NCBI GenBank assembly: GCA_037043015.1
Contig: CM073322.1
Location: forward strand, 5,839,601-5,903,600
Direction of reading: 5' to 3'
DNA length: 64,000 bases
Source: Bryum argenteum
Taxonomy: Eukaryota; Streptophyta; Bryopsida; Bryales; Bryaceae
Positions within the stretch are counted from its first letter, which is position 1. The number at the start of each line of letters is the position of its first letter. The notes beneath the pieces were generated by a model that was given only the letters and a program-made list of their open reading frames with translations, had not been told where the DNA came from and made no database searches. This document shows positions 170 through 50,892 of this stretch, one piece after another. The translations under genes were made by a program, and so were the position numbers.

Positions 170-2500
170 CCCCCCACACCACTTGCCTCTTCACTATGTT
201 GACAACCCGAAGTATATGTCACTACGTCGCACAGAGTTTGCCAAACCCACTTTCGGTGACAATTTCGGACATGAAGGTTGAAGAGCGTGCCTAGTTGGGA
301 AAAATCGTGCTTGAGCTTGAGGTTTCGTAATTTAATTACACCTTTTCTTTCTCGGTTTCAGCTCTCTGTAGTCTTTGATCACATCCTTCATCTTGCTTTG
401 CTCTGTAGGAGTTGCTCTTGCGTTCTCTTGGAGTTTTTATTCGGAAGACATGCTTTAGATTGATGCCGGACGTAAAAGAATGAGGTTGCCGGTATTAGGT
501 TTGAATGGATGCAAGGGTTCTCGCTGTCTGCTACTCTGCTAGAAAGGAGTTTGGACTTTTCTCTAATCCATCGTTATTGGTTTTCTCTTAGTTGGATGCA
601 GAAGGAGCCCAACTCAAAAATTTGTGGAGGATTTTGTTTTCTCACGACACTCGGTCAAAGATAGTGAAAAGAATGTAAGTCTCAAATACTTCTTTTTCTT
701 GATTACATCGTTCATCTCGATCTGGTGTGTCTGAGTAGCTCTTGCGTTTTCTTGGAGTTTTTATTTGTAAGACAAGCTTTAGATTGGTGTGAGACGTGGA
801 ACAGTGAGGTTGCTGACACTAAGTTTGAATGGATGTAGGGTTCAAGCCATCTTTTCGCCAAGAAAGGAGTTTGGATTTTTCTAATCTATTGTTATTGGTT
901 TTTTGCTAGTTGGATGTAGAAGGAGCCGAGCTCGAGAATTTGTCGCGGAATTTGTTTGCGCAGGACACTCTTGTCAAAAATAGTGAGAAGAATGTAAGTT
1001 TCAAATATTTCTTTTTTTCCAACACAACGTTCATCCCAATTGGTGTGTCTGAGTTGTTCTTGCGTTCTCTTGAAGTTTATATTCAGAAAACCAGCTTTAG
1101 ATTGATGTGTGACGTAGAACAGTGGGGTTGCGCATTTAGTCCGAATAGATGCAAGCGTTGAAGCCATCTTTTCGGTGTCTGTAAGGAAGGAGTTGAGATT
1201 TTTTTCTAATTCATCGTCATTGGTTTTTCTGTAGTTGAATGCAGAAGGAGCCTTGCTCAAATATTTGTGGCGGAGTTTGTTTGCGCATGACACTTGGTCA
1301 AAAGTAGTGAAAAGAATGTAAGTCTCAAGTATTTCCTTTTCTCCAGCACATCGTTCATCTCGATTGGTGTGTCCGAGTTGCTCTTGCGTTCTCTTGAAGT
1401 TTTCAATTAAAAGACAAACTTTAGATTGATGTGGGACATAGAACAGTGAAGTTGCGTATTGGGTTTGAATGGATGCCAGGGTTCCAGCCATCTTCTTGGT
1501 GTCTGCAAGAGAAGAGTTTCAAGTTTTTAACCTCAATTCCGTTAAAATGGCACAATTCCTTGTGCCATATTGCCAAAGCCATGTTGTGCCAATTTGGTCG
1601 CGTTTCTGAAACGTGCCATTTTACCGGCATATTTTTGAACTCAAAATCTCAAAGATTTATGCTTGCAAAATGGCACGTTTTTTAATATCACCCACATCTT
1701 CCATTATATCAACAAATTTCTGTAATATCATCAAAAATTCCATAATATCACACTATTTGATGAATTTTGACCTTCAAATTTTGTCGAAGGGCAGTTTTTT
1801 CTCAACAGCCGCTCAGAAATATCTCTGGTTTTGAGCGGCCGCTCGGAAAAATTTGCTCTATTATGTCAAAAAATGACAAAAACGAGTGTTGTTTTTTTCA
1901 TTTTTTCCACCTTAAATTGTGCCATTTTACCAGAATATTGCCAAATTAACGGAATTGAGGTTTTTTCTAATGGATCGTCATTGGTATTCTTTAAGTTGGA
2001 TGTAGAAGGAGCCTTGCTCAAAAATTTGTGGCGGAGTTTGTTTGCGCTGACACTTGGTCAAAGGTAGTGAAAAGAATGTAAGTCTCAAATATTTCTTTTT
2101 CTCAATTACATTGTTCATCTCGATTTGTTGCATCAGAGTTGCTCTTGCGTTCTCTTGGAGTTTTATTTGGAAGACAAGCTTTAGATTGATGTGGGACATA
2201 GAACAGTGAGGTTGCCGGTATCAGGTGCAAATGGGTTTAAAGGTTAAATCTATCTTTTTGCTTTGTGCAAGAAAGGAGTTGGATTTTGTCTAATCCATCG
2301 CTATTGGTTATTTCTAAGTTGGATACACGACACTCCGACAAAGATAGTAAAGAGATTGTAAGTCTTAAATATTTCTCGTCTCTTTCTGCATGTGGTGCTA
2401 AGGGAGCCCCTAGTTTTGGGAGGATACTGACATGTTTCAAGTCTCGTACAAATTGCATTGCTAGTAATGCATACTTTTGCCGGTTTGAAATTTTGTGATT
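170..2500 (+). repeat. Tandem array of five MED15 leader/exon-1-like units (relic unit 1)
   Basis: Each unit resembles the 5' leader plus coding exon 1 of MED15, as found at 11.3, 18.49 and 22.78 kb. The exon-1-like blocks end in a splice donor GTAAGT (or TTGTAAGT in the last) at about 675, 994, 1318, 2078 and 2358. Donor spacings are 319, 324, 760 and 280 bp; the 760 contains a 434-bp insertion, leaving 326. Each exon block keeps remnants of the W-R..L..D-(S/T)-R..K-I-V-K-R motif, but the MED15 start ATG is lost. The left end (170-300) matches the upstream regions of units 2 and 3, including the CACTTGCCTCTTCACT stretch. I see no long reading frame, so this is a decayed, locally amplified 5' gene fragment. 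Confidence 0.8.
1529..1962. mobile_element. 434-bp non-autonomous TIR element
   Basis: It has perfect 17-bp terminal inverted repeats, AACCTCAATTCCGTTAA at the left and its complement at the right. A second inverted pair inside involves AATGGCACAATT. It interrupts the exon-1 array; removing it restores the 326-bp period, which supports a clean insertion. The flanks are T-runs, so the target-site duplication cannot be read with certainty. No coding capacity. The superfamily is not assigned. Confidence 0.8.
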
Positions 2501-2830: not shown

Positions 2831-5800
2831 TGCTGAGACCGAGGAGACGATGTCAAAAGAGAAACTGAAGCTTACAATGATGTATCTAGAGAATGGAAAA
2901 GTTTCCAACCTAGTGGATGCAAACCCAACTAATTCCAGCATGATGTCTAGACAAACTGAAGAATCTCAGGGTTTGCTGCAACTACCAACACTGAGGAGGC
3001 CAAACTCCTCGCAGACGCCGAGGCAAAAGAGATTGCAAAAAAGAAAGGTAAAGAGAACGTGGTTTTTGTTAATGTGAGCACCGATGAGCCGCCATGCATT
3101 GGTGCTGCAGGTTCGAGTGTGGAAAGTAATGAAGGCTATTTGGACGAAGAGTTTGAAGGAGAATCCCAAGTCTCTCATGTTGCAGAGCCCAGCGTTACAT
3201 GGAACATCACATCATCAACCATTGACCTCAATTGGGGCAACAACAAATACACCTTTCCTCCTGGAACCATGTAAGCATTCTTTTCACCATTCCTGATGTG
3301 TTACGATGGACTGTTGTTGTCAAATGGATTTTCATGTTGAATAATTGGGCCTGCAGATTCCAGATTGACACAAAGCTAGGAACCGCCAAGGCCTGGACCA
3401 TGGTATATCATGGAAGTGCCCACTCGTACCAATTGGCAGCTCTTCCACCTTCATCAAAAGTTGGAGTACGCATCCGGACTCTAACTACAATGGGATGGAC
3501 TTTTGAAAGTAAGCAAATCATTCCACTCTTGTTAATCGATACGTTTTTTTAGAAGATGAGTTGCAAGCAAGCTTAGCTTCATTATGTTGATTGATTGGCA
3601 GCTACCTTTGTTACGGAATCCGGTCCACCATCAAAGCCATCAAAGCTAGTGGTTCTGGAACATGGCACCGATTGGATCGAATTGGCATGGCGTCCTCATG
3701 TGCATGACGGCGGGAGATCTATTGAATTTTACTGCGTGGAGGTAAGAGTTCATATGAATGTTCAACCGTGTGTTCAACCAGGCATGTTGATTGCAACGAA
3801 TGATTAGTATTATTAATTTTCTTCTGCACAAAATCTAATGTAATGCTTCAATGCAGATGTACGTACAAACACAATCCAGTCCTAAGAATTCCCAAAGTCA
3901 CATTTTCAGCACAACCTACTACAATAAGTTTGTGGCCAAAGAGTTGGAGCCCGGCACCAACTACGTCATCTGTGTTTATGCACATAACGAGCTAGGGGAT
4001 AGCGCTCACTCTGGTATGTACATACACATGAAAAATTGAGGTTTTTTATTAGACTCCCTTGATGTATTGATGTTGATGTTCATTTGCAATTTGTACAGTT
4101 TCGTTGGTGATGACCAACCCTGCCCCACCAGCAGTACCAAAGGCTCCACATATCAAGGATTTAACTTCCAAAGCCATTTCTCTCCGGTACATTTCTACGA
4201 AGCTCCCTTTTTCTTGCACAGAAAAGATAAGAATTTGGGTACTCACATTTCTATTTTTCTATGCAGTTGGCCTTCTCCTCGCTGTAATGGTGAACCTGTG
4301 AAAACCTTCGCCTCGAGATGCTAGATCTCGGGTATGGAGAGAAAAGCCTCCCAAAAGAGACTATTGCGGCTCCAGCACTTGTATCTGAGGTTTATAGCGG
4401 TCCAAAGAACGAGTTTGTTGTGAGGAAGTTGCATCCTTTGACAACATATGCATTCCGGGTGCAGGTATGTAACTAATGCAATACAGATGATTTTGTTCAA
4501 TAGGCAACAATTTTTAATGTTATGGTATGTTAATTGGTGCAGGCAATTAATGCAATTGGATCAAGTGAGTTCAGCAAATTTTCTGTTTGCAAGACTTCTG
4601 TAGCGGCCCCAAGTCCTCCTGAGCATCCTAGAGTAATTGAGACAAAATCAACGGCTGCCAAACTAATATGGATGGTTAGTCTCTCTCACACTACATTGTA
4701 TTGGATGGTTGGTCTTTCTCACACTGCATTGCATTGCTACTTTGACAATCGTGTAGCAATGGTACTAATTGAAAACCTAACTTGTTGGTGTTTTTAGGCT
4801 CCAGAGCGAGACAATGGCGCCCCTGTGTTCAAGTACACACTTGAAATGCAAGAAGTGAGAGTACCCATACCGTCCGAGCTACAAAGACTCCAAGGCAAGA
4901 AAAAAGTGGCTGTAAAGTCAGATGTGCTTCTAACGTCTTCATCTACTCGAGCCTGGATCGTGGTTTATGATGGCCAAGAACTTTGGTAATGCACGCTCTC
5001 GTTCATTCTGTAGCATGAGAACTTGGATAATTCGATTTGGCTTTAGGGTTCACAATTGTAATGATTTGCTTGTTCGTAGTTAGAGTGACAAATTTTCATG
5101 GATGCAACACGTCTGAGATCACAGGTCTCTCTCCGGGGCGTGAGTACAGGTTCCGAGTGAAAGCGCATAATGTTTATGGCTCATCCTCTCCGAGCTCCGT
5201 TTCTGTGGCGAATTTACTTGCTACTACACCACGAGTGCCTCCACCACCCACATTCGATAAAGTCTCGCCTACAACAATGCAAATTAAGTGGACAGCTCCA
5301 CAATCTGATAATGGCATGACAATTTCAAGGTAATGAAAGGCAAACCGGCAAAGGGAAGCAAAACTGGGTGCTTCGATATACATGCATATGAATCTAAACC
5401 TTTGGAACTAGGTACATCAACTCAACTTAGATGTCTGAGAAACTGCTCTGTTTTGGAGTTGTGCAGGTATGCGCTTCACTTGGACAATGGCCGAGGAGGG
5501 CCGCTGAGAAAGATTTACAAAGGGGAGACTAGACTATACAACTTGTCAAACCTCATCAGAGCATCAAATTACAGAGCAGCAGTGCAGGTTCGTACTTTTA
5601 ACAAAGCTAGAGTTGTTTCAATAAAGAATTTTCTACCCTTGCCACAGTGAACCGAATGTTTTTATTAAAGTTGCAGGCTATCAATGCTTGCGGAGCCAGT
5701 GAACTTAGCGAAGTGGCGGTGATCGAGCTGCCGGTGTTCAAAGCTCCACCAACACCGCCGTTTGCAGAGAGAAAAGCACCAAAAAAGGTTGCGGTTCTTG

Positions 5801-6543
5801 CCGCTCGATCCAAGCTTGCAGCATTGGAGGTGCCAAAATTGGAGAATCCAGCACCTCAGAGTCCTTCGAAAGGGGCACATTTGCTTGTAGTGGAGGTGCC
5901 AAAGACATTGAAAAATGTTCGTGTGAAGGTGGAATCCTCAAAAGCACCTACACACCCAAACATCAAGCTCGAACGGGCACTTGGGAAGTTCGGAGAGGCA
6001 TCACAACCAAAGAAGGAGAAGCAAGAACCTGCTACACTCGAAGCCAAAGGTGAGATTTCCAAACGTAAGAAGCTTGCATTGGCACCACCACCACAAGAGC
6101 AGGAGAAGTTAAGACCTGCTAAGCTTTTGCTTGTGGCTGCGAAAGCTGAAATAGTGTCGGTTCAAAAGAAGGAGAAGGCTGCACTTGCAAAGTCTTTAGG
6201 ATCATTGTCGAAGAAGCAGAAACCCGTGGCACCTGTAATTGTGGTGGATTCAGCAGCTCCAAAGCCAACATCGCCTTCACGAGCACTAGAAGAGACTGCA
6301 CTTGCCGCACTAGCATTAGCATCTTCTTCTGTTGAGAGCATCAAGTCGAAGAAGGAGATGAAGTTGCTCGTGAAGAAAGCTCACCAATCGTGGTTGGAGA
6401 GGGGAGTTGATTTCATCAAGAGGTTTAAGGGGTTCTGGCCTCTGTGGATCGTGCAAATATGCGTTGTTTCCTTTTTTTTATTCAGGTTCTTCCAAGACTA
6501 TTTTAATCTGGCGTCCGATAGTTCATTGGATCCTATTGATTAG
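2549..6543 (+). CDS. FNDC3-like protein: five fibronectin type III domains and a C-terminal membrane anchor; frame breaks, possibly a pseudogene
   Basis: Exons recognised by open frame and GT-AG sites: about 2549-3270, 3357-3508, 3602-3741, 3857-4013, 4099-4196, 4267-4464, 4543-4674, 4798-4985, about 5084-5329, 5467-5587 and 5677-6543. They encode five FN3 modules, with typical I-x-L-x-W strand B and L-x-P-x-T/R-x-Y-x-F/V-R-V motifs and N-x-x-G loops. A Lys/Ala/Pro-rich linker follows, then a hydrophobic segment near the C-terminus (WPLWIVQICVVSFFLF), as in animal FNDC3 proteins, which are tail-anchored. The frame is interrupted near 2630-2680, near 2940-2970 and at about 4306-4314 (one base short), and every acceptor tried for the 5084 exon gives a stop at the junction. 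No convincing initiator ATG; the first is at 2646. It is either a decaying or 5'-truncated gene or carries sequence errors. The last exon (289 codons) is intact. Confidence 0.75.
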
Positions 6544-6766
6544 ATGGTCTTAGTTTCGGGCAGAATAAACAAGTGTGCACAGAGTGCAAAGTCAAAGTTT
6601 GTGTCTCAATAGCTTTGTACTTTCCTCTCTTCAATAATCAACAATAATGTGTTGATCATTCTCAATTTTGTTTATGGCAGGGTTGTGAAAGGTTTCAAGA
6701 TTGTTTGTCGCAAAAGGTTGATTTGAATATATATGTTTGGTACTATTCAAAGCAAGGCACTCAAGT

Positions 6767-7060
6767 TAGTCTTTTGCTTCACACACAACTCAATTCGTGC
6801 GTATGACAACAACAAGTGCAACGACTTTCAAAAGAATCAAAGTTCATAGTGGAAGTTGGAAATCTATGTTTTGCATCCGATACTTGTTGAGCTTAGTTTT
6901 GGGATGCACTTGACACCTGAAATGTGACATGTCTTCACAGCAAGATTATCTTCAAAAGATCTCGCTTAAGATGTTGTCATAGAGACCGGGATCTGGTCTA
7001 ATCCTCTTCTGAAGAGACTTCCGCTTCGAACTCAAGTTGGAGCGTCGGGAGCAAGTTTAT
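6767..7060 (+). pseudogene. MED15 KIX fragment (intron 2 and exon 3), unit 1
   Basis: Homology to MED15 begins one base after the exon-2 donor (TTAGTCTTTTGCTTCACAC) and runs through intron 2 into exon 3 at 6941. Exon 3 reads QDYLQKISLKMLS and then TAG, where MED15 continues. Exons 1 and 2 are not adjacent; the FN3 gene occupies their place. It is a dead relic. Confidence 0.85.
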
Positions 7061-8428: not shown

Positions 8429-8489
8429 ATAGTAGTTTGTATTTCATCTATCATTAATATTTTTTAATATAGATTTTTTATTATATATA

Positions 8490-9155
8490 TATTTATTACC
8501 GAAGCACTACTCAAATTCGGAAGTAACATAAGTCAAAAAGTTAACTTGTTTTACAAGGGCGGCCACTAAACGTTATGGAAACAATCTTCAAGATTTTTCG
8601 TAACTTTTGAATTATTTAATTCAAAATTTGTCAAAATTAGATATTTTGAATTTTTTTGGAAAAGGTTACGGTAAAATAAAAAACTTACGAAGGTACCTAA
8701 TTGCATTTCGCTTTTTTGAAGTAGAATTGACAATAATGTTATCTTTGCGTTTATTGCTTTACCTTCTCCTAAAAACCATTGCATGAAGGTTTAAAAAGCC
8801 GAAGGAGTACTCAAAATGTTGCAAAGGTATTCTCAACATAGTTATCTACATGGAAAAAAATATGAGCAAAAATCTATGGAGTAACAATCATCACTATTCT
8901 CCCTTTGCTCAGCGTAGACTAAGTCTTGTACACAATGCCCAAATTTTTTTTCATTGATTCTCAATGCTATAATCTTACAATTGGTGCAGATCCAACAGTT
9001 GAAATTAGACATGATAATCTTGATAGTAGTTTCCTTTGAGACCTTAGAGTTGAAAATCCAATAAAATCTTAAAAATTTCAGCCTTACCTCAATCTCCACA
9101 AGGTAAAGAGAAATCCGAGATTGGAGATAATAAAATGTTTGGATTTTTTAAGGGG
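8490..9155. repeat. Old, 5'-truncated relative of the 930-bp TTAA element family
   Basis: It aligns with the internal part of the young 930-bp copies: the ...TACTCAAATTC..., ...TTTTACAAGGGCGGCC... and ...TAGACTAAGTC... blocks occur in the same order. It is collinear with 14350-14989, so it is the duplicated descendant of one old insertion. The left end is deleted. Confidence 0.65.
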
Positions 9156-9981
9156 TATAGTTGAAGGCTTCAGTTTTTTATACATCAAAATAAGAAAACT
9201 TATGTAACAACTTTGTTCATGAGCTAGTTATGTAATCACCTCTTTCTCAAAAGCTAAGACGACTAATTAAGATATCTTTCTTTTTAATGATAAAAAAGAT
9301 CATCAAATTCCCAAAGATGATGAATTTTCATGGAGAATTGAAATGTTTCCAAAATCACAATTTTCACTAGTAACCACACTTTGGCAACCTATCCATATCA
9401 TGATAATGGCAATCATGATATTCCAAAGGAAATGTAAATGGAGGTCTCGACCTTAATCTTTCAGCCCTTGCCTCTCAATGATTGCCTTTCGTGCCCTTTG
9501 CCCTTTGTATATACAGAAATTTTAATTCAAGTTACCAAATAATAGTTAGAATTATTGAAAGTTTGTAATTCAAAAAACTGAAAGTAGAGGTAAGGTAATT
9601 ATCACAATATTTTATTGTTGAGTTGTCAAACAACTCTTTTTATTCTTATTATCATGGTATATGAAATTCATAATTATGAGTCAAAATGGCCGTCGTGTAT
9701 CTATCAAGATCTTTTAATATTGGGTTCCCAAACGTAGCCTTACTTTTGAAACCTTCGGCGTGAACTTTAATCCTCTATAAACTCTAATTAGCTTTTAGCA
9801 ATTTTTTGTTTACCTATTTTGTACAAATAATTTCGAATCAACTTTGAGGGGGTAAACTATATTTTTTCGTAATATGAATTCAAAAATAAGACCAAAGATC
9901 CTAGATATCCCAAACTCAAAACCTAAAACAAAAAAACTCAACCTCAAAACCAAACCTAAACATTATATTTTGTTCACTTAA

Positions 9982-11274: not shown

Positions 11275-12475
11275 TTGAATGCAGAAGGAGACGAGCTCGA
11301 GAAGCTCGAGAATTCGTGGCGGAGTTCACTTGCTCACGACTCTCGGACAAAGATAGTGAAAAGGATGTAAGTCTTGAAGATTTCTGATCTCTACGTGCAG
11401 GTGGTGCTCAGGAACCCACTCGTTTTACAAGGATTTCACGTCTCCTTTGAATTGCGTTACCGGTGTTGCATGCTTTTGCCGATTTGAAATCCGGAATATT
11501 TTACAAAGAAACAGCACCAAGACCTAGTCGGACGTACAAAAATCATGTTAAGAGATGCTTCTGTGTGGTATGTTTTACACAAGCCACAGAGCAGCTAGAT
11601 GATAGTGTCCGCAGGAGTGTCTGGTTAGGAGCCAGAACCAGGGTACCTTGCTTTGTTTGAAACATCGGGGGGATGGTAGATGCGTGTAACATACATGATG
11701 ATGGATCCCCGTCGAATTAGTGAACGATGGAGTGTGGTAATGGTTGGGCTGTATGTGTGTATGTGAAACGAGTGTCGGTGTGGTGCAGCATGGACACGTT
11801 GAAGCGCCATATGCCAGTTGCTGGGCAGGACGGCGAGGATGAGCTTCTGAAGATCGCATGGCAATTCGAAGAGAAAATCTTTCAGGTTGCAACTGATCAA
11901 GTAAGTCTTTTGCTTCACACACAACCCAATTCCTGCGTATGACAACTAGGAGTGCAGCAACTTTTTCGGAAGACTCAAAGCTCATAGTGTGAGTTGGAAT
12001 TTTGGAAATCTATGTTTTGCATTTGATACTTGTTGAGTTTAGTTCTGGGATGCACCTGAAATGTTACATGTCTTACACAGCAAGATTATCTTCGAAAGAT
12101 CTCGCTTAAGATGTTGTCATTGGAGACCGAGGCTAATCCTCTCCAAAACAGATATCCGCCTGGAGCTCAAGAAGTTGCAGCGCCAGGTTGTTTATTATCA
12201 CCTTGGCTTACATGTAACGATAAGTGGGGACACACCAGACGTGTGTCAGTGCGTTTATGTTAAATATTGTGAGATTTTATCAATTGATTCGAGTTGAAGA
12301 GAAAAGTGGGTGTGTCTTTCACTGTCTGTATTGTGGGCATTTCAGTGGTCTTATGGACATTTCAGGGGCCTTATTAGTAGCGGTTGATATTTCAGGTTCT
12401 TCAGCTGGTGCTGTGGCGATGCGAAACCCTGCTCACACCACAGAAAACGGAGTTCTCTCGAGCGAGGCTCAATAG
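11275..12475 (+). pseudogene. MED15 KIX-domain paralogue, unit 2 (open KIX exons, no clear start codon)
   Basis: Exons match MED15 exons 1-4: 11275-11366, 11789-11900, 12081-12186 and 12405-12475, all with GT-AG borders and conserved phases. The frame stays open through the whole KIX region (MDTLKRHMPVAGQDG..., then QDYLRKISLKMLSLE...) and exon 4 (AMRNPAHTTENGV), ending at TAG where MED15 continues into its glutamine-rich part. In exon 1 the MED15 ATG-GAT is replaced by CTCGAG sequence (ENSWRSSLAHDSR), so no in-frame ATG exists in that exon. Splicing from an upstream ATG at 11184 is not in phase by the donors I can see. If translated it would be a KIX-only protein with a short tail. I rate it a recent pseudogene or a gene with an unrecognised start. 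Confidence 0.75.
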
Positions 12476-12889
12476 CACCTTCAGTGACAACAATGATTGG
12501 TTCTGTCTAGATTCGGAAAGCTTAATTCTGGGACGCAGTTGACACATGAAATGTGATATGCCTAGATGGTTTAGATTAGTTTTGAAAAGTCTCCTTGAGG
12601 TTGTTGTCAACGGAGATCAAGGAAAACCACGTTGGCACGATGCTCGACTTGAATGAGGCAGGGGCTGATTTAAGTGTTACATGAGAATCGGTTGAAAAAA
12701 CAAGAATTGGGTGAAATGAATGAGGAGGTGATTGGCGAGGGGACTCCGACAAACCTCTTTCAATGCTTAGAATCGATGTATAAGGATGTATGTAAGGGGT
12801 TTAATATGAATGTATATTATATTAATATATTGTATGCTTATACTCTCAATCAAGGGCAATAAATGTGAGTGAAGAAGTTATGTATAAGC

Positions 12890-13399: not shown

Positions 13400-16220
13400 A
13401 GACACAACTCCTAAACAAAACAAGAAGTAAGGAACTTCTTTATAAGATTAAAATAAGATAATTTTGTCAGATAAAAGAATAGATAGAACTTGTGTTACGA
13501 GAGTGAAGAATAACGACCTAAAGCTCATTATATATGCTAGTGTAGAGGAAAGCTTTCGGCGTACGATCTTGGAGGCAATCATAACATCTTCTAGTAGTTT
13601 GAGGCGGGTATTTGAAATTCTAGGAAGGTGAAGCAAAAACTTCTTGAATCTAGGAGGAGGAAATGGAAGTCTTTAAAGTAAGGTCTTGGAAGTAACCATG
13701 AAATCTTCCGGAAACTTGAGAGACTTCTAAAATCTAGGAAGGTGAGGTGAAAGCTTTCTGAATCTAAACAACTATATGTAAGCTTTGGAAGTTTGAGAAT
13801 TTCGTAGAAAGTTCTAGGAGATAACGGAAGACCCAGAACCTTCAGGAAACTTAGACCAACAAAATATTTTTTTAGTAAATAAATTTAGAAAAGTTCTTGA
13901 GGGGCATCATTTTCACAGTAAGTTTAGGAATGCACAAGAAGCTAAACTATGACACGTCCATGACATTTTCTAAAATTACCCTCATCTTGATTATTAGATA
14001 AGTGTAAGGAGTGTAGTTGAAAAGCCTTCGTATTTTTATTGTTGTCATTTGTATTTCATCTATCATTCATAACAATTAGTTTCAAAGTTTTATTCATAGT
14101 TAGATATCAAATGTGTAAGAATTAAATCAAATATAGGTTAAACCCCTACACGTCAATAAAACCCAAATATCAAGTTTTCGCAATATGGGGCAACCTAGAT
14201 GAAAGGGTTAGAAGTGATACTTTTGCCTAAGATTTTTACTGGATGTTCCTTACACCATAACGTATATGTGGTTAACTCTGCAAAGTCAATTTCTAAGTCC
14301 AAAAAGGGCAGTTAGAATTTAGTCTTTTTTTAAATATTTCCTTCTAACATATGTTCATAACCAAATCACTACTCAAGTTCCAAAGTAACCTAAGTCAAAA
14401 AAATTACCAAATTTACAAGGGCGGTGTCCAAAAGTTAGAGAAACACTCTTCAAGCTTTTTGGTAATTTTTTATTTATGTAACTCAAAAATTGTCAAAATT
14501 CGAGATTCCAGATTATTTTGGAAAAAATTGCTTAAAATAAAAAACTTATAAAGATACCTACTCACTGTTCACTCCTTCTAAAAATAAAATACAATAGATG
14601 TCATGCTTGCTTTTCCAAATCACTCATTCTATACCTTGTTCAAAAATAAAATGGAATGAAGGTTTAAAAAGCAGAATAAGTCTCCAAAAAATTTTGCAGG
14701 CATTCTCAACTTAGTTGTCTACATGGAAAAAGACATGAGCAAAGTTTTTGGAGCAACAATCATTAAGTCTCCCTTTGCTCAAAGTAGACTAGGTACTCGA
14801 CAATACCTAAGAAAAGTTTGCATCACTATTTAATGCTATAAGTCTCACAATTGTTAGAGATCCAACGTTTGACTTTGAACATGGTAATTTTAATAGTAGT
14901 TTCCTTTGAGATCTTATAGTCAAAAATCCTATAAAATCATTAAATTTCTTTTGAGTTTGGAGATAAATTTTTTTTTTGGATCTTTGGGGTTAAATTGAAG
15001 GGTTGAGACTCTCACACATGAAAATGGAAAAACTCATGTAACAACTTTGTTTCTTTAGTTTGTAAGTTAACCACCTCTTTTAAAAAAAAGCTAAGACAAT
15101 CAATTAAGGTTTTTTTCTTTTGGGATGCGTTTTGGAGCCACCCTAATATTATGATATTTCACTCAAAATCACAATATTTTTTAGTGACCACCGGTTTGGC
15201 AACCCTTTATTTTCATACAAATAAATACCATGATATCCCCAAAATCATGATTTTTCATTAGAAAAATAATCAAGATATTCCCACAATCACAATATTGTCG
15301 TGGACCATCCATTTGGCAACCCTTCATTTTATGATAAAAAGGATTATGATATTTCCAAAGCTCATAATCTTTCAGAGAAATTTGAGATATTCTCATTATT
15401 CCACTTTTCACTAGTGCCCACTCGTGTAGCAACCCATCAATATCAGGATAATGATAATCATGATATTCCAACGGAAATGAAAGTAGAGGTCTCGACCTCA
15501 ATGTTTGAACCCTTGCCTCTCATTGATCGCCCTTCCGTGCCCTTGGCCCTTTGTGTCCACTAAAAATATAATAGAAGTTACTAAAATTACTGAAAATGTA
15601 CTTAAAATTACTGGAAAATACTCCAAGCTTGTCATTAAAATTATTGAAAATTATAGAGTTCGTGTAATTATCACGATATTTTACTATTGAGTTGCCAAAT
15701 GACCCTTCAAATTCTCAGCATCATGGTTTGTGAAAATCATAATAATGAGTGAAAATGGCAATCATGTAAATATCACAATATTTTATTATTGAGTTGCCAA
15801 ATGTACCCCTTAGTTTTAGAACATTCGGGGTGAATTTTAATCCTCACTAAATTCTTATTAGCTTTTGGCAGTCTTTGGATCACCTATTTCGAATCAACCA
15901 TGTGTGTTTCAGGGATAAAGTGATCTTTTTTGACAATTTAAATTCAAAAATAAGACCACAGATCCTAGAAATAAAAACTCCAATAAATAAAAATTCCAAA
16001 CTCAAGACCTAAAATACAAAAAATCAACCCAAAAACTAAACTTAAAATTACTTTTTTTTTCGCGACACAAACTTATCCGTGATAAATTGGTAGGTTTACA
16101 CAACCATGAAGAGGTTCATCGGTCAATAAATTAAGAATAAATTTAAAATATGTTTAATTGAAATTTAGACTCTTGAAATATGATTGGTTGAAAAAGAAAC
16201 TCTTCATGTACTGATGGCTT
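13400..16220. other. Intergenic spacer of unit 2, paralogous to unit 1 spacer
   Basis: No gene seen. Collinear with 7.8-10.75 kb as described there. It has the pre-insertion states for the SINE at 8067 (near 14.03 kb) and for the TTAA element at 9982 (near 16.05 kb). Confidence 0.65.
14143..14989. mobile_element. Older full-length relative of the 930-bp TTAA element
   Basis: It starts CCCCTACACGTC and ends CTTTGGGG, with TTAA at 14138-14141 (one extra A before the element) and TTAA at 14990-14993. The internal order matches the young copies, including TTTTGCCTAAGATTTTTA and TTTACAAGGGCGG. Sequence divergence is clearly higher than among the four young copies. Confidence 0.65.
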
Positions 16221-16704: not shown

Positions 16705-16913
16705 TAAGACCACTCTTAAGTCTTCAAAACTTGAGAATATTTCTAATTGTGGTGCTTCCCTAACACTTGCCTACTAATGCTCAACTATCTTTTGTCCACC
16801 CAAATACTAGCTAATATTTTTTTTGTCCTCCAAGTTTTAGAGTGTGCCATGTGGGCATCCATGTAGGATTGGTAATTACTAAAGAGTGTAGGTGTGGACA
16901 CACACTCTTTTAA

Positions 16914-17845
16914 CCCCTAAAAATCCAGGATAACCGATTCGGTTTTCTGAGATTTCAGGCAGCTCATTTTAAGCATTTAAATCGATATTTTTGCCTAAGA
17001 TTTTTATTGGGTGCTCCCCATACAGTAATGTGTATGTGGTAAAATTTTCAAAGTCAAATTTTAATTTTATAACCTTCACCTAGAAATTTTAGGTTTCAAG
17101 TCCTAAACGGGCAGTTTAAAAAATATATATATATATATATTTTTTTTTTTTTAGAAATATGTTCATTACCAAATTACTATTCAAATTCCAAAGTATCCGA
17201 AGTCAAAAAGTTTACCAATTTTACAAGGGCAGCCTCCAAAACTTTCAAAAACAATCTTCACAATTTCTAGTAATTTTACAATTTTTTCTTTCAAAAATTG
17301 CCAACATTCGAGATTTTGGATTTTTTCCAAGATTTTTTTTAAAAAAATTCACATTATCATAAATGCACCTTCTCACCGTCGAGATTTTTCTCAAACTAAA
17401 TATATCAAACGTGGTGCTTGTTTTACTATATGGTTATTTTTAGACCTTCTTTCATAAAATATTTTACGTTAAGGTCAAAAAGTGGAATTGGTCTCCAAAA
17501 TTTTGCATGAGCACACCCAACTTGATTACCTACATGAAAAAAAATGAGGGAAAAATATTTGGAATAACAATCATCAAGTTGCCCTTGGCACCATTTAGAC
17601 AATGCCTCTCACGCAGCGGCAAAAAAAAGTGTTGGTCAAACTTTGATTGTTATGATCTCACAAATGACAAACATCCAACGGTTGAAATTTTGACCAGTCC
17701 TTTGTATACAAGTTAGGTACAAGATCTTACGGTTCAAAGTCTAAAACCGGAAAAAAAAGTTTCTCCATTTCCCCATTTCCCAACGAAGGTGAAAAATGGC
17801 AGTTTTTGGTTCTGGAGGTCGAGGAAACCCCTGGATTTTTAGGGG
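16914..17845. mobile_element. 930-bp TTAA family (F1), copy 1
   Basis: Termini CCCCTAAAAATCCAGG and its complement; TTAA at 16910-16913 and 17846-17849. 932 bp, with no long reading frame. An internal A/T microsatellite lies near 17120-17155. It is nearly identical over its length to copies at 34020, 49740 and 57415. Confidence 0.92.
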
Positions 17846-17938
17846 TTAAGGGGATAAGACCACCTTCTAACACCACCTCTAAGGCCAAGTGGGAACGTAC
17901 CTTTACTCCACCGTAGTAGAAACCGACCCTAAAACTAA

Positions 17939-17946
17939 TATAAAAA
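17939..17946 (+). promoter_or_regulatory. Putative TATA box of the KIX-only gene
   Basis: TATAAAAA in the context ACTAATATAAAAATGAATCGC, matching the position before unit 2. It is followed by the leader block CCACTTGCCTC shared by the three units. Full-length MED15 has a different upstream sequence. Confidence 0.45.
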
Positions 17947-18490
17947 TGAATCGCATCAAACCCCCCACTAAACCACTTGCCTCGTCGCTCTGTCGGCAAC
18001 CCGGAGTATATATCTGTAGGACGCAGACATTTTGCCACACCCGCTTTCGGTGGCAATTTCGGAGAGGGAGGTTGTGGAGCGAAGCCTGGACAAGGAGGAG
18101 GAATTGGACAAGAGGATTGTCTTGGGCACAGGATTTCATTGCCAATTGATCCTTTTTCTTTCGCAGGTACAGTTGTTTGCACCTGTCTATCTCGATTTCA
18201 ATTTCATTGCGACCCTCGATGAGATCCAACCTTTCGTTTATCGAGATTTGCTGTTTCGAAGACGCTCTTGCTTCGGGACGAGTGTCTTTCTAGGGTCAGG
18301 AGTTTGAGATCTTGGACGGAGGACGGTGGGGTTAGGCAGAGCTGATTGGATGCGAGGCCGGGGTCAAGCCACCTTCCGAACCAAGAGCGTCTGATTCAGC
18401 GTGTTCTGTTTTTGTGCAGCTGGCTGCGGCTACGGAAGGTTCATCCTTTGCAGCAATTGTAGAGGTTGGTGTTACGTTACAACTATCAAC

Positions 18491-19333
18491 ATGGATAATT
18501 CATGGCGGGCTTCGTTGGGGCACGACAGTCGGACAAGGATCGTGAAAAGAATGTAAGTCTGTCAGAGGCTTCTGGTCTCTACTCTCACATAGTACTCCAT
18601 AACCCACTGCTCGTTTATAAGGATACCTTCAGGTATCACGTCTCCTGTGAATTATGTTACTTGTGGTGCTTGCTTTAGCGGTATCTGGGGTTTTGAAAGT
18701 TTTAGAAAAGAAATGGCAATCTGACCTAGTCGGAGGAGCATGATCAGAATTAAAGAGGCACAAATGGCGAAGTGGGATATGAGTTAGTCTGAATGTGAAA
18801 TGAGTGTCGGTGTGGTGCAGCATTGTCACGTTGGAGCGCCACATGCCAGTTGCTGGGCAGGACGGCGTGGATGAGCTTCTGAAGATCGCATGGCGATTCG
18901 AAGAGAAAATCTTCCAGGCTGCAACTGATCAAGTAAGTCTTTTGCTTCGCACACAATCCAATTCCTGCGTATGACAACGACGAGTGCAGCAGTTTTCAGA
19001 CGAATCAAAGCTCATAGTTGGAAATCTATGTTTTGCATTCGATCCTTGTTGAGCTTAGTTTTGGGATGCCGCAGTTGACACCTGAAATGTGACATGTCTT
19101 TACAGCAAGATTATCTTCGAAAGATCGCGTCTAAGATGTTGTCACTGGACACACGGAGTGGACGGAATGAAGAGAATGAAATTGGGGTGGTGATCAACCA
19201 GCAGGAGACGGAGGTCGACGAACGTTCATCGAAGCTTGACATCGCCATTAAGATGTGGTCACTGGAGGTACAGAGTGAAGAGAACGAGAATGGGGTGGTG
19301 ATCAACGAGGATGAGATGGAGGTGGAGGCTTAA
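18491..19333 (+). CDS. Intact KIX-only MED15 paralogue, 133 aa (unit 3)
   Basis: Three exons, 18491-18552, 18821-18932 and 19106-19333, with GT-AG borders at exactly the MED15 positions and phases; the 402 nt end in TAA. Residues 1-58 match MED15 with about six changes (N7A, A10G, K16R, M22I, D23V, Q26E). Helix residues of the KIX fold are kept, including W5, HMPVAGQDGVDELL, AWRFEEKIF and QDYLRKI. From residue about 75 it diverges into an acidic tail made of two tandem copies of a KM-(L/W)-SL(D/E)...EN(E)xGVVIN block. The glutamine-rich middle and the MED15 C-terminus are absent. KIX domains bind activation domains, so a protein with KIX alone could compete with Mediator (inference). The ATG is in the same place as in MED15. 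Its promoter region is shared with the other units, not with MED15. Expression is unknown. Confidence 0.8.
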
Positions 19334-19404
19334 TACACTCAAATGATAGTGAAATGGACTTGAACAATGCATACGGGGAGCTTGAGTTTCAAAGCCATTT
19401 TGGC

Positions 19405-19700
19405 GAGTGGGAGTGTACAGACGTTGAGCTCTTTTGGTGTGCATTGCCCATTCGGAGTATACGAATGTTAAGGTTTTTAGGTCTGCATTTCCCATTGGGT
19501 TGTACAGATGCTAAGCTCTGTAGGTGCGCATTGCCCATTGGGAGTGTACGGACGTATAGCTCTTTAGGTTTGTAATGCCGACGTTTAGCTCTTAGGTGTG
19601 TGTATTGCCCATTGGGAGTGTACAGATGTTGAGCTTTTTAGGTGTGCATAAGAGAGTTTAAGGTGTGCACAAGAGAGTTTAAGGTGTGCATAATAGGCTC
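19405..19700. repeat. Minisatellite downstream of the KIX-only gene
   Basis: About five degenerate units containing GCATTGCCCATTGGGAGTGT and ACAGATGTTGAGCTCTTTAG, then short GGTGTGCA..AAGAGAGTTTAA repeats. Probably within or just after the 3' UTR. Confidence 0.75.
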
Positions 19701-19739
19701 CTCGTGTGTAGGAGAACATTCGTTCAATGTATACGCTAC

Positions 19740-21560
19740 ACGTATGCTTGCTTTGGAGTTTAAATGGTTTTTAAATTAGTGTACAAAGTGTCGAACATTG
19801 GATAGCCTTTGGATCATGATTATAGTGGTTTGTTTTTCAACTATTGTAAATAACAATAAACTTCAAAGTTCTCTTTTTAGTATATTCTTATATTTGATGA
19901 TATATTATTTGATTATGGGCTACATTAAAGACTTTGCTCTTCCACACATATGAAATTTGAGAAACCTTAAATATTAATTGTGTCGTTTCTTTGTTGGTTT
20001 GTTTGAACATCACCCTTTCCCAAAATTTAAAACTGCAAGGTCTTAGTCATGAACAACTTGGGTAATCACCCTTTTGAATTGAATTCAAATAACTTTGACT
20101 ACATTCTTAATCCCTATGCGTCCCTAATTGTCACCTAAAAATTTGAAATCAATTTTTATAATGAAAAATTTCATTGATATTATCTCTATCATCCTAGATA
20201 ATGTGATTATTTTTTTTTCAAAAGCTGTAATTTAAGTGTGATAATATCAAGTATGGATGGATTTTCATGGACCACCCTTGCATTAAATGCAATGTTATTC
20301 ATGCAACTTGGTCGTTCACCAACCCTTCATGGGCAAAAAGGACTTTTTATTTCCATTGCATTGAAAGGGGCGGCACATGACCCTCACCACCGTCAAGACT
20401 TGGCCTCTATGCATCCCAGACACTTGTATTCACCTATTTTGATTTTCCACCTATTTTTCAATAATACCACATTTACGACATTATCAGATATGACACACCT
20501 TATCTATAACACACTTTTTGGTGAAACGGATGGTGTGATATTATCAAGGTTATACCGTACCAGTATGTCGTAAGCTTTTACTTCTTACTATGATATATAT
20601 ACAAGTAATGTGGTTCACGATAAAGAATATAAATTTGGACACATTAAAAGACGGAGATGTGACTCAAAAACATGGTAAGACGGAAGCACTCGGTAAGTCA
20701 TGGTGTACTCGTAAAAATTAATCAAAGATAGAGATATGATACAATCACTTGATAAGATAGCAATTTTGTAAACGCTAAGTTGTAATTATAGAAATATATC
20801 AATGTAATAAAATAACCTAATGATCAACAATTGTCTCATGTTGGTCATAGCAAGAAGTCATAAATATGACACGACTGCTAGATGAGACAGAAGCCTTGTA
20901 TGCAACACACTAATCTCTACTCGCAAGAGAATACAAGTCTCATACATTGAACCGATGAGACAGAACCATTATCTATATTTATAGGAATTACCCATAAAGT
21001 GTTACTCAATCTTATTCTCTACTTTTTAGAACAATTCTAATCTTGCATAATACCAAGTAGAGTCAAAATGTTACTATCAAGTATTTTTCTAACTAAAGTT
21101 TGAACAAGCACAAAATTGTAACTATCTAGCAGTCAAAATGTTACTATCAAGTATTTTTCTAACTAAAGTTTGAACAAGCATAAAATTGTAACTATCTAGC
21201 ACACAGTCTCTCAAGCCAATCCATAATACAACCCACCCTGAACTAAATCTTGATTTTACATACATTATAACATAATTGAGCCAAAATGCGAGTCCAACAA
21301 CAAAAACCGGACACAACTATCACATAAGTACACTTTGCCCAAATTTCAACATAGAGCCCATGGCCCAATCAAACAATTGGAGCAATTTGTACAACCAAGG
21401 GATCCTACTAGAAAGTGCAATAGAATGGTCGCAGGGGCGCCAGGGGACCCATCGGGATTTGCTTTACGGGATTCCTGGCGCTCAGCAATAAAAAATCCTT
21501 TAATAAAATGGTCGAAATACGGGTGCTCTTTGTTTTCTGGCACGCAGGGTTGTTGATGTT
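19740..21560. other. Intergenic spacer between the KIX-only gene and MED15
   Basis: No gene supported. 19.75-19.88 kb matches the landmark spacer of units 1 and 2, with GATTATAGTGGTTTG and no SINE. 20.23-20.35 kb resembles 15.30 kb. It includes a 70-bp tandem duplication listed next. Confidence 0.6.
21061..21200. repeat. Tandem duplication, 2 x 70 bp
   Basis: 21061-21130 and 21131-21200 differ by a single base (CACAAAATT versus CATAAAATT). Confidence 0.95.
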
Positions 21561-22781: not shown

Positions 22782-25700
22782 ATGGATAATTCTTGGCGGA
22801 ATTCGTTGGCGCACGACTCGCGGACAAAGATAGTGAAAAGAATGTAAGTCTGAAGATTTTGTTCTTTACTCTCATATAGAGCTTGGTAACCACGAGGCCT
22901 AAGTTCATTATGCCACTCACGTGTTTCACAAGCATACCGTCAGGTTTCACGGCTCTCCTGAACTGTGTTACTGATGGTGGATGCTTTAGCGGTATTTTAA
23001 TTTATTTGGGGTTAAAAAAGCTATACAAAGAAATGGCATTATGACCTCGTCGGAAGAACAAGTTCATGATCAGAGTGGTCATGCATGCCTTAGTGTGGCA
23101 TAGTTTACGTAAGTAATATCGCAGTTAGAATAGCTTCGGCAGCAGTATCTAGTTGGGAGCCAGAAAGTATTTCAGTGGTCGGCAGTGGTGCGATTTCTGT
23201 ATGGTCGTGCTTGGGATGAAGCGTGAGTGCACAGCTTAAGTTGCTATTGCTTCACTGGGTTACCTTGCTCCGTTCTAAATGTAGGGGGGATGCTAGGAGG
23301 GACGGACATGCGTGTAATTACATGATGGTTCCTGTCGAATTAGTGAATGGCGGAGTGGGGTATGGGTTGGGCTGTATGTGTATGTGAAATTATTGTCGGT
23401 GTGCTGCAGCATGGACACGTTGCAGCGCCACATGCCAGTTGCTGGGCAGGACGGCGTGGATGAGCTTCTGAAGATCGCATGGCGATTCGAAGAGAAAATC
23501 TTTCAGGCTGCAACTGATCAAGTAAGTCTTTTGCTTCGCACACAACCCAATTCCTGCGTATGACAACGACGAGTGCAGCAACTTTCCGAAGAATCAAAGC
23601 TCATAGTTTGAATTGGAAATCTATGTTTTGCATCTGATCCTTGTTGAGATTCAGTGAGCTTAGTTTTGGGACGCAGTTGACACCGGAAATGTGACATGTC
23701 TTTACAGCAAGATTATCTTCGAAAGATCTCGCTTAAGATGCTGTCATTGGAGAACAAAGCTAATCCTCTCCAAAACAGACATCCGCCTGGATCTCAAGTT
23801 CCAGCGCCGGGAGCTCAAGTTGCACCGCCAGGTTGATTATTCTTACCTGGACTTACATGTAACGATATGAGGGACATGGCAGATGTGTGTCAATGCTTTA
23901 ATGTCGAATAACTTGAATCTTCATTCATCGATTCGAGTTAAAGAGAAAAGTAGGTGTCTCTTTCATTGTACTGTGGACATTGCAGTGGCCTTATTAGCTG
24001 TTGATATTTTCGGTTCTTCAGCTGCTGCTATGGCGATGCGAAACCCTACTCAAGCCATGGGAAACGGAGTTCTGTCGAGCCAGGCTCAACAGCAGCTTCA
24101 GCAACAGCAGCTCCAGCATCGTCAGCAACAACAATTATTGGCTCAGTCTCTGCAGGCTACTGGAACTGGTGGCATTCAAACCCCAGCGACTGGGTTGGGC
24201 ACTAATTTGTCGTCAATCGCTGGTGTGCCTCAAAACCTAGGAGCCATGTCTGGTCAGGTCATGAATCCAGCCATGAACCCAGCAATGATGAACAACCGCT
24301 TACAGCAGATGCAGCAGCAGCAGCGCCAACAACAGCAAGCAGTGCAGCAACAGCAGCAGCAGCAACAACAGCAGGTAATTACGTTGCGGATCTCTCTCTC
24401 TTGCTGAAGGTTCCATTCTGGCATATATTTGGTCGTTTAGCAAGTGAGGTACTTATTTGTTATATAACAGATTTCGTCAAACGTTGATTATATTAGCTGA
24501 TGCGCATGACTTACTCGTAGCCACTTTCTGTAACATGTGGTTCTATGATGGTTGACTGAAGCAGAATAGTCAACAACAGCAGCAGCAATTATACCAGCAC
24601 CAACAGAGGTTGCAGTTACAACAGCAACAAGCAATGTTGAAGCAGAAACTGCAGCAGCAACAGCAGCAGCAACAGCAACAATCACTTCTCCAACATCAAC
24701 AGCAACAGTCTTTGCAACAACAGCAGGTGGGAACGCACAATATCATGACTCACCTTACTACCTTCGGATTGCAGTTGATCAGGATGTTACACTCACTTTG
24801 TGAGACCGTCTGGAGAACCTTTGCTTAACAGGATGAAGCAGATTTTACGGTGTCTAGTTGTATCCGACTGTCGATTAATTATCTGTGCTTATTCGTGTCG
24901 GAATTTCTTCTTGGACCAGGTTGCTGCGTTGCAACAACAGCAACCTGTCAACCAGCTTATGGGCCAAAGCAACGGCATGGGCCAAAGCAACGGCATGAGC
25001 CAAAGCAACGGAATGAGCCAAAGCAACGGAATGAGTCAAAGCAATGGAATGAGCCAAAGCAATGTCATGGGTCAAAGCAATGTCATGGGTCAAAGCAATG
25101 TTATGGGCCAAAGCAACGGAATGGGCCAAAGTAATGTTATGGGCCAAAGTAATGTCATGGGCCAAAATAACGGAATGGGCCAGAGTAACGGGATGGGCCA
25201 AAGCAACGCAATGGGGCAAAGCAATTCGATGGGGCAGAGCAACGGTATGGGACAGAGCAATGCAGCACTACAGCAGCAGCAGCTCCTGCAGCAGCAGCAG
25301 CAAGCCAAACAACAGCAGCAGCAAGTGAGTGATGTTGTACAGTGATGCTTGGGTTGCGAAGGGTAGTGGAGAACTTTGGTTGTGGAGAACTTCAGCATTA
25401 TACTAAATCTAATGTTCCAATTTTGTCCTGTTCCTTCTTCAGCAACAACAACAGCAGCAGCAACAACAGCAACAGAATCAACAGCAGCAGCAGCAGCAGC
25501 CTACAGCTACACCTACCCAATCGCAACAATCGCAGCAATCCCAGCCTATTGTGCAGCAGCCTGGTCAACCTGCTCAGCAGCAGTCTGTCTCGAACCAGCA
25601 ATCCCAGCAGCAGCGTATTGGACAGCCAGGTAATGTTATAACTTTGTGAACTTGTTGTAGGCTACTTCAAGTACCAGGATTTTTGAAAGTATTGGTGGCT

Positions 25701-34015: not shown

Positions 34016-34019
34016 CTAG

Positions 34020-35693
34020 CCCCTAAAAATCCAGGAAAACCAATTTGGTTTTTTGAGATTTCTGGCCGCTCCTTTTAAGGAGTTAAATTGATATTTTTGC
34101 CTAAGATTTGTATTGGGTGCTCCCCATACTGTAATGTGTATGTGGTAAAATTTGCTAAGCTAAATTTTAATTTTATAACCTTCATTGAGAAATTTTAGGT
34201 TTCAAGTCCAAAACGGGCAGTTTAATTTTTTTTTATTTGAAGTATTCTTTTTTGGAAATTTGGTCATTACCAAATTACTATTCAAATTCCAAAGTGTCCA
34301 AAGTCAAAAAGTTTACCAATTTTACAAGGGCAGCCTCCAAAACTTTCAAAAACAATCTTCACAATTTCTAGTATTTTTACAATTTTTTTCTTTCAAAAAT
34401 TGCCAAAATTTGAGATCTTAGATATTTTCCAAGATTTCTTTTTTCAAAATTCACATTCTCATAAATGCACCTACTCACCGTCCAAATTTTTCTCAAACTA
34501 AATATATCATATGTGGTGCTTGTTTTACTATATTGTTGTTTTTAGACCTTCTTTCATAAAATAATTTACATTAACCCCTAAACGTCCCTAGTGTCGAAAA
34601 GCGACATTTTGGATGTAGGGAAGAAACTTTGAAGAGTCATAACTTTGTTGTCCAAACTCCGTTTTTGACGAAATCACTTGAGCTAGGTCACAAATCAAGT
34701 CTAGTTTATGTGGTAAAATTTGCAGACTCATAAAATAAATTATGAATAAATGGCATGGATTTTAGTGAAGGCAACTTTTGTTTTTGGGTTTTCAAACATT
34801 TGGCATGTTTTACCATTGCAAGCCAATTATGTGAAATCTAAAATAGTGTTTCATGAATTTTTTTTCATAGGTTTGATATTTAGATGCATCCCAACAAATT
34901 TGTAGTTGGAAGTTTTTTGATCTAGATAACTTTGATATTGGCTTTGCAATGATGTTCCTACAATGAAAAAAGTGAAAAAATGGATGATTTTTGAAGAGCT
35001 AGATCTCCTTCATCCACCGTTAGATTTTGACTTTATTTTTTGGGATGGATTCCAATTATAGTCTATTTTTAGTGGTAGAAACCTTGACCCAATTGAGGAT
35101 ATATTGAAGAAAAGGCATGGATTTGAGTGCGAGGGGTCTAATTTTGGACTATTTTTCCTTTGTAAAATTTTGGCAGTTTTGGTCCACATGATCTACTACA
35201 AGTCTATTACAAGTTTGTAAGGTTGAGATATGAATAGCTTATCTTTATTTTCATCTACATCACTTTTTTTGAAAATGAGTTTTTGGCTAAAAATACCCCA
35301 AGTACGTTTAGGGGTTAAGGTCAAAAAGTGGAATTGGTCTCTAAAATTTTGCATGAGCATACCCAACTTGATTACCTACATGGAAAAAAATGAGGGAAAA
35401 ATGTTTGGAGTAACAATCATCAAGTTGCCCTTGGCACCATTTAGACAATGCCTCTCACGCAGCGGCAAAAAAAAGTGTTGGACAAACTTTGATTGTTATG
35501 ATCTCACAAATGACAAACATCCAACGGTTGAAATTTTGACGAGTCTTTGTATACAAGTTAGGTACAAGATCTTACGGTTCAAAGTCTAAAATCAGAAAAA
35601 AAAAAAGTTCCTTTATTTCCCCATTTCCCAACGAAGGTGAAAAATGGCAGTTTTTGGTTTTGGAGGTCGAGGAAACGCTTGGATTTTTAGGGG
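34020..35693. mobile_element. 930-bp TTAA family (F1), copy 2, target CTAG, carrying a nested element
   Basis: Termini CCCCTAAAAATCC and GGATTTTTAGGGG; flanking duplication CTAG at 34016-34019 and 35694-35697. Removing the nested 740-bp insert and its 4-bp duplication leaves 930 bp. Confidence 0.9.
34575..35314. mobile_element. 740-bp TTAA element nested in F1 copy 2
   Basis: Termini CCCCTAAACGT and its complement, with TTAA at 34571-34574 and 35315-35318. The other F1 copies show the unfilled site (CATTAAGGTCAAAAAG), so the 4-bp TTAA duplication is directly visible. No transposase frame. Confidence 0.92.
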
Positions 35694-35699
35694 CTAGTG

Positions 35700-49648: not shown

Positions 49649-50892
49649 TCCTTAAAGGTCCTTGGGGTTTGAAACGGGCAGCTCAAAATTGAATCACAAC
49701 ATCTTTTGGACTTGGGCATCATGAATAGTGCACTTTTAACCCCTAAAAATCCAGGAAAACCGATTCGGTTTTCTGAGATTTCGGGCAGCTCATTTTAAGC
49801 ATTTAAATTGATATTTTTGCCTAAGATTTTTATTGGGTGCTCCCCATACAATAATGTGAATGTGGTAAAATTTTCAAAGTCAAATTTTAATTTTATAACC
49901 TTCACCTAGAAATTTTAGGTTTCAAGTCCAAAACGGGCAGTTTAAAATATTTTTTTTAATTTTTTTTTTAGAAATATGCTCATTACCAAATTACTATTCA
50001 AATTCCAAAGTATCCGAAGTCAAAAAGTTTACCAATTTTACAAGGGCAGCCTCCAGAACTTTCAAAAACAATCTTCACAATTTCTAGTAATTTTACAATT
50101 TTTTCTTTAAAAAATTGCCAAAATTCGAGATTTTGGATTTTTTCCAAGATTTTTTTTTTCAAAATTCACATTATCATAAATGCACCTTCTCACCGTCGAG
50201 ATTTTTCTCAAACTAAATATATCATACGTGGTGCTTATTTTACTATATGATTGTTTTTAGTCCTTCTTTCATAAAATATTTTACATTAAGGTCAAAAAGT
50301 GGAATTGGTCTCTAAAATTTTGCATGAGCATACCCAACTTGATTACCTACATGAAAAAAAATGAGGGAAAAATATTTGGAATAACAATCATCAAGTTGCC
50401 CTTGGCACCATTTAGACAATGCCTCTCACGCAACGGCAAAAAAAAGTGTTGGTCGAACATTGATTGTTATGATCTCAAGAATGACAAACATCCAACGGTT
50501 GAAATTTTGACCAGTCCTTTGTATACAAGTTAGGTACAAGATCTTACGGTTCAAAGTCTAAAACCGGGAAAAAAAGTTTCTCCATTTCCCCATTTCCCAA
50601 CGAAGGTGAAAAATGGTAGTTTTTGGTTCTGGAGGTCGAGCAAACCCCTGGTTTTTAGGGGTTAAAACTTGGGCATCGTGAATGGACCAATCAATGATGA
50701 GCTTGCAACCTTCTACAAGTTTATGTACAACCCTACCTACCTACCGCAATCCTTTCAAAGCACTTCTTGAATGCATCATAAGAAGGTGACTAGTTTGACA
50801 TCAAAATATACGTGAAAAGTTAAGTACAGTGAGAGCTACAAGGCATATTCTGTTGGAAAAAAGCCCCTCGGGCTTACGAGGACCTTTAAGGG
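49649..50892. mobile_element. TTAA element (F2), copy b, carrying F1 copy 3
   Basis: Termini TCCTTAAAGGTCCT and, complemented, CCCTTAAAGGTCCT. Flanks are CTAA and TTAT, so the duplication has decayed or was imperfect. Interior matches the inverted copy a (CAAAATTGAATCACAACATC; CCAATCAATGATGAGCTTGC). About 318 bp without the nested element. Confidence 0.8.
49740..50661. mobile_element. 930-bp TTAA family (F1), copy 3, nested in F2 copy b
   Basis: 922 bp, termini CCCCTAAAAATCCAGG and CCTGGTTTTTAGGGG, TTAA at 49736-49739 and 50662-50665. The inverted F2 copy a shows the uninterrupted sequence at the corresponding point. Confidence 0.92.

Follow-up and report, generated by a model that had tools for sequence, protein, structure and literature searches.

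A KIX-only gene next to MED15: structure, relatives and a possible role as competitor

Structure and product of gene D

The window analysed here, the whole stretch of 64,000 nucleotides at C2:5839601-5903600 in a genome of 258.8 Mb in 25 contigs, contains a three-exon gene (D) that encodes a MED15-type KIX domain followed by a short acidic tail and ends 3.4 kb before the start of the gene for MED15 itself (gene E). Our tentative reading is that D is a KIX-only gene, arisen when the 5' part of MED15 was duplicated in tandem, and that it encodes a free competitor of MED15. That a gene type of this kind is functional is best supported by two older genes of similar design, G and H, more than by D alone. 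The features of D and of the start of MED15 are as follows.

17903..18490, + strand, region upstream of gene D; 89 % identity to the upstream region of copy A (see below) over 573 aligned bases
18491..18552, + strand, gene D exon 1: ATG, MDNSWRASLGHDSRTRIVKR and 2 nt
18821..18932, + strand, gene D exon 2: central part of KIX, 96 % identical to MED15 exon 2
19106..19333, + strand, gene D exon 3: end of KIX, then the acidic tail and the stop
19855..19860, + strand, possible polyadenylation signal AATAAA downstream of D (consensus match only)
22782..22843, + strand, MED15 (E) exon 1
23410..23521, + strand, MED15 (E) exon 2
23708..23831, + strand, MED15 (E) exon 3

The coding sequence of D (402 nt) is in frame with a single terminal stop and encodes 133 amino acids; its introns have GTAAGT donors and CAG acceptors, and the lengths of its first two exons (62 and 112 nt) and its phases are those of MED15. 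The protein matches the Pfam family KIX_2 (PF16987) with an E-value of 2.2e-25 and 88.8 bits, membership being defined by a score over the curated Pfam cut-off (25.6), and 52 of its first 58 residues are identical to those of MED15. The description in an earlier note on this DNA, of a three-exon KIX gene with the start, splice sites and phases of MED15, about 90 % identical to it over 58 residues and in tandem with its parent, is thus borne out. Over 73 residues the two proteins differ by nine substitutions (N7A, A10G, K16R, M22I, D23V, Q26E, S66A, L67S and E73D).

Beyond KIX, D carries a tail of 61 amino acids (D+E 30 %, net charge -13), and exon 3 contains an in-frame internal repeat within the tail, with 19124-19218 resembling 19241-19326. 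The DNA from exon 3 of D onward (19150-19900) gave only its self-match when the 258.8-Mb genome was searched, at the sensitivity of that search; the rest of MED15 is therefore absent from D, and the same DNA search gave no match that could be a source of the tail elsewhere in the genome. Both the glutamine-rich middle and the C-terminal Mediator-anchoring part by which a MED15 subunit is recognized are missing from D, which ends at 19333, and the earlier account of a short acidic tail with the remainder of MED15 lost is correct. By the simple patterns used D has no basic, NLS-like run, and the EAR patterns LxLxL and DLNxxP are absent from D, G, H and A. The region upstream of D bears only a weak similarity to its MED15 counterpart (56 % by MAFFT; 66 % by BLAST over 18196-18746), and joint expression of the two genes is thus not assured.

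The parent gene

MED15 is a tail subunit of Mediator; it assists activator proteins in turning genes on, and these dock on its KIX domain. After exon 3, open glutamine-rich pieces continue MED15 on the + strand to about 31150, and these downstream pieces include what we take to be the C-terminal motif of MED15; a Pfam search of the C-terminal pieces gave no family. The KIX domain of E matches a solved KIX of MED15a (9zjn chain C, E-value 9.7e-25), and from this match we take the genome to be that of a land plant. Two 20-mers taken as Marchantia polymorpha primers had no match in the genome with up to 1 mismatch. When the genome was searched with a C-terminal MED15 piece, E was recovered along with four weak, partial matches at other places; hence no full MED15 other than E was found. 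Dispersed pieces resembling the C-terminal exon are located at C7:14870537-14870665 (-), C7:14869183-14869278 (-), C3:21928971-21929078 (-) and C7:16089956-16090072 (+); they are 38-44 % identical, have the stretch VES[IV]P.TM.SADG in common, gave no match in the KIX_2 genome search and could possibly be C-terminal-only relatives of MED15.

The KIX cluster

The sequence read covers 118 kb, that is, the window plus 54 kb of flanks, and positions before base 1 of the window carry negative numbers. Whole-genome searches in which only the best candidates were scored returned all of their KIX matches in one cluster (11 of 11 with D as query, 4 of 4 with 98 amino acids of G, 3 of 3 with H and 7 of 7 with the KIX_2 family). 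From upstream the order is H, G, A, exon-1 fragments, B, C, D and MED15 (E). A, C and D closely resemble E and one another, and the flanking blocks are duplicated as well. The broken or partial copies within the window are the following.

170..2491, + strand, small array of promoter/exon-1 fragments in tandem, resembling exon 1 at 643, 1268, 2023 and 2326
6761..6979, + strand, copy B: stop-containing fragment of intron 2 and exon 3
11305..12186, + strand, copy C: exons 1-3 of the MED15 5' part, ATG lost, KIX frame otherwise open

Copy A, which lies outside the window from C2:5836304 (window -3296), still has its ATG and splice sites, and its KIX frame is open over 92 codons to the MED15-type donor, or over 99 residues if intron 3 is retained. 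Copy C has an in-frame stop upstream of its lost start, and no exon 2 or exon 3 match was found near the exon-1 fragments (643-2365). The frames of A, D, G and H are unbroken and those of C, B and the exon-1 fragments are broken, so that the decay of sister copies stated in the earlier note holds for the start-less C, for the exon-1 fragments without exons 2 and 3 and for B with its stop, but not for A with its intact KIX frame. The birth and death of a single-domain protein beside its parent gene can be seen in the cluster at several stages.

Three side observations concern this array. Within 375-2327 only one exon-1 match extends as far as the start position (613), and it lacks an ATG at that point. 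Flanking blocks of about 0.8-1.4 kb are repeated at about 70-73 % along the cluster (8487-9284, 14376-15730, -5707..-4287 and -1595..-817), and mark a segmental unit repeated in tandem. Copies A and C both have a further partial piece of intron 2 and exon 3 (12509-12620 and -2274..-2162), some 0.4-0.5 kb past exon 3 of each; it is not seen twice in MED15 and is a mark of the common origin of A and C.

Two older genes of similar design

G and H are located outside the window, 26-30 kb upstream of D. H (C2:5828239-5829064, 130 amino acids) and G (C2:5830472-5831728, 271 amino acids) each have three exons with the phases of MED15 and GT-AG junctions; in the G model the exon-2 acceptor AG was chosen as the one keeping the frame, and one base off gives stops. 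Both match KIX_2 (G, E-value 5.8e-16 with the first 112 amino acids as query; H, 3.6e-13), with 53 % (G) and 43 % (H) identity to the KIX of MED15, and both end in acidic tails (net charge -64 and -13 respectively). Their synonymous divergence from MED15 is 0.86 for G and 1.07 for H, and their dN/dS ratios to MED15, calculated pairwise by the Nei-Gojobori method over 72 codons (69 with H) with Fisher p-values, are 0.42 (p = 0.007) and 0.49 (p = 0.024); for the older pair itself, G against H and without MED15, the ratio is 0.57 (p = 0.117).

In a rough simulation, for which the indel rate and the base-change bias were assumed rather than measured, the start, splice sites and frame survived neutrally in 0.15 % of cases at 15 % divergence. 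Because their divergence is far beyond this simulated value, G and H have most likely been maintained by selection, and, since neutral frames rarely survive such divergence, a gene type consisting of KIX plus an acidic tail has probably persisted beside MED15.

Selection on D and the mosaic likeness to MED15

The coding pattern of D had been described in the earlier note as purified, and this is not upheld. The dN/dS ratios of D, taken pairwise among the genes of this cluster, are 0.62 to MED15 over the 72 codons (Fisher p = 0.243), 0.61 to A (p = 0.393) and 0.61 to H (p = 0.124). A value of p < 0.05 was reached by eight of the 15 pairs, which do not include any comparison within A, D and E, and the lowest ratio of all is that of C to MED15 (0.24, p = 0.007); since the start-less C has the lowest ratio, dN/dS is a poor sign of life in this cluster, and, with D indistinguishable from 1, it cannot serve as proof of selection on D. 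A tree of the seven KIX sequences gave support for none of its four inner branches.

When A, C, D and E are compared in all six pairs, the KIX exons contain no indels, introns 1 and 2 together contain from 6 (A-D) to 16 (C-E), and for the A-D pair 3.3 exon indels were expected and none observed (P(0) = 0.037). We regard this as mild evidence, since indel-free exons, which the start-less C has too, may reflect recency as well as constraint.

The likeness of D to MED15 is itself mosaic. By MAFFT the two are 0.561 identical upstream, 0.757 in intron 1, 0.964 in exon 2 and 0.947 in intron 2, and the difference between the introns has p = 7e-8; other aligners place intron 1 at 0.81 (global) or, together with part of the upstream region, at 66 % (BLAST). 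Sites that group D with A number 35 upstream, 4 in exon 1 and 16 in intron 1, against 8, 0 and 7 for the two alternatives combined; such sites are few in exon 2 (1) and in intron 2 (3, against 2), so that over these two segments the four copies A, C, D and E hardly differ. This pattern points to gene conversion or nested duplication, which would produce a close KIX match without the need for strong selection and which accounts for that match at least as well as constraint does; constraint may also act on intron 2.

There is a substantial possibility that D is a recent, non-functional partial duplicate which has yet to decay, its likeness to MED15 being due to recent duplication or gene conversion and its open frame to luck. 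The equal similarity of exon 2 and intron 2 next to the lower value of intron 1 would then be expected, as would a non-significant dN/dS of about 0.6, the presence of several dead pieces in the cluster and the open KIX exons of A and C. Luck would, however, have had to extend to the start, splice sites and frame, which in the rough simulation with assumed rates survived neutrally in about 1.5-3 % of cases at 8-10 % divergence, and to a 61-codon tail that is open, carries an in-frame repeat and matched nothing else when the genome was searched at the DNA level; older intact genes of like design (G and H) also argue against this explanation.

Possible function

For D as a competitor of MED15, we take it that repeated tandem duplication of the MED15 5' part (the upstream region and the first three exons) gave rise to several KIX-only genes, D among them, and that the D product combines a MED15-type KIX with an acidic tail, without the glutamine-rich middle and the C-terminal part. 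It is the C-terminal part of MED15 that holds the protein in Mediator. If D is transcribed and translated, its KIX would most likely bind the activation domains that MED15 itself binds, 9aaTAD-type helices among them, and the free KIX would titrate these off MED15 and dampen MED15-dependent transcription; the tail may also have some part in this. Such a competitor, microProtein-like role is plausible, and D, G and H could all make small proteins of KIX plus acidic tail that might compete with MED15. One report (PMC11714745) describes docking of the 9aaTAD of DELLA on the MED15 KIX and recruitment of Mediator in plants, including the liverwort Marchantia. A DELLA family search of this genome gave no match, and is uninformative since the control genomes gave none either. 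S66A and L67S of D are located at the expected helix 3 and may alter the binding or range of partners; a study of human Med15 (PMC4770211) finds residues near the end of helix 3 to matter for specificity, and the partner range of D may for this reason have shifted. If these genes are expressed, they would give the plant a naturally occurring decoy of the Mediator tail KIX that can be separated genetically, with which activator competition for MED15 could be tested in vivo.

The tails bear on a different function, in which D (and G and H) would be a KIX adaptor or weak activator, the acidic tail with its hydrophobic residues recruiting factors or filling its own KIX groove as an activation-domain mimic. 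We consider this unlikely, though an acidic tail is found in all three genes. A stretch of the type ENG[VI]VI is common to the tails of D and G; its score is reached by 12 of 2000 shuffles, for a sub-stretch chosen afterwards, but with full tails the figure is 81 of 2000 and with the first 40 residues of the G tail 197 of 2000. At the DNA level either D repeat, compared with the start of G exon 3, which includes KIX codons, has a score that none of 1000 single-base shuffles reaches. Homology of the D tail to that of G is suggestive at best, and homology to that of H was rejected, as 1627 of 2000 shuffles reach the score and the likeness is none beyond composition; tail similarity among the genes is mostly acidic composition. 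Small plant KIX proteins do occur in a repressor complex, KIX8 and KIX9 being members of the PEAPOD complex; they carry an EAR motif for TOPLESS binding, which D, otherwise like them a plant KIX protein, lacks. They have no other known domains and fall in a different KIX group from MED15 (PMC10565003).

It is also rather improbable, in our estimate, that D belongs to a lineage-specific family of KIX plus acidic-tail genes long kept beside MED15 and repeatedly renewed from it so that the docking surface of the decoy stays matched to that of MED15 itself; duplication or gene conversion would then have refreshed the KIX exons, as in D, with an older acidic-tail exon retained. That the upstream copies are alternative first exons of MED15, with transcripts starting at D and D exons 1-2 spliced to MED15 exon 3, is very improbable, for although the two are on the same strand, 3.4 kb apart and with identical splice phases, D has its own exon 3, stop and possible polyadenylation signal, and such a transcript would need to leave out MED15 exons 1-2.

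Known relatives

The arrangement of D beside MED15 is already known in kind from Arabidopsis, where some MED15-like genes next to MED15a encode short KIX-type proteins. By their locus numbers AT1G15770, AT1G15772 and AT1G15790 adjoin MED15a (AT1G15780), a likeness to D in arrangement. AT1G15770 is given as MED15b (PMC9181133), AT1G15790 is counted among plant KIX domains (PMC5668377), and a GWAS table (PMC11178574) groups AT1G15770, AT1G15772 and AT1G15780 as genes for mediator subunits. What is added here is the presence of acidic-tail genes and their apparent renewal by duplication or conversion. MED15 has KIX_2, exons and phases in common with D, which is without everything past KIX. MicroProteins are single-domain competitors derived from larger relatives, and D is likewise small (133 amino acids), has a single interaction domain and is derived from a larger protein, MED15, with which it is in tandem; KIX, however, binds activators rather than dimerising with MED15, and the likeness of D to microProteins is one of structural criteria. 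Narrow literature searches, by title and start of abstract, returned no report of a KIX-only MED15, and the wider literature may hold one.

Other features of the window

An ORF at 5647-6543 encodes 298 amino acids, rich in lysine, alanine and proline and with a hydrophobic stretch near the end; it has no Pfam match. Among window ORFs other than the MED15 pieces, Pfam gave no family for two. A repeat of about 0.94 kb occurs in three copies about 95 % identical (16907-17849, 49733-50665 and 57412-58347), together with partial ones (34017-34574 and 35314-35696). It resembles a young interspersed element, and one of its copies ends directly upstream of the D promoter region.
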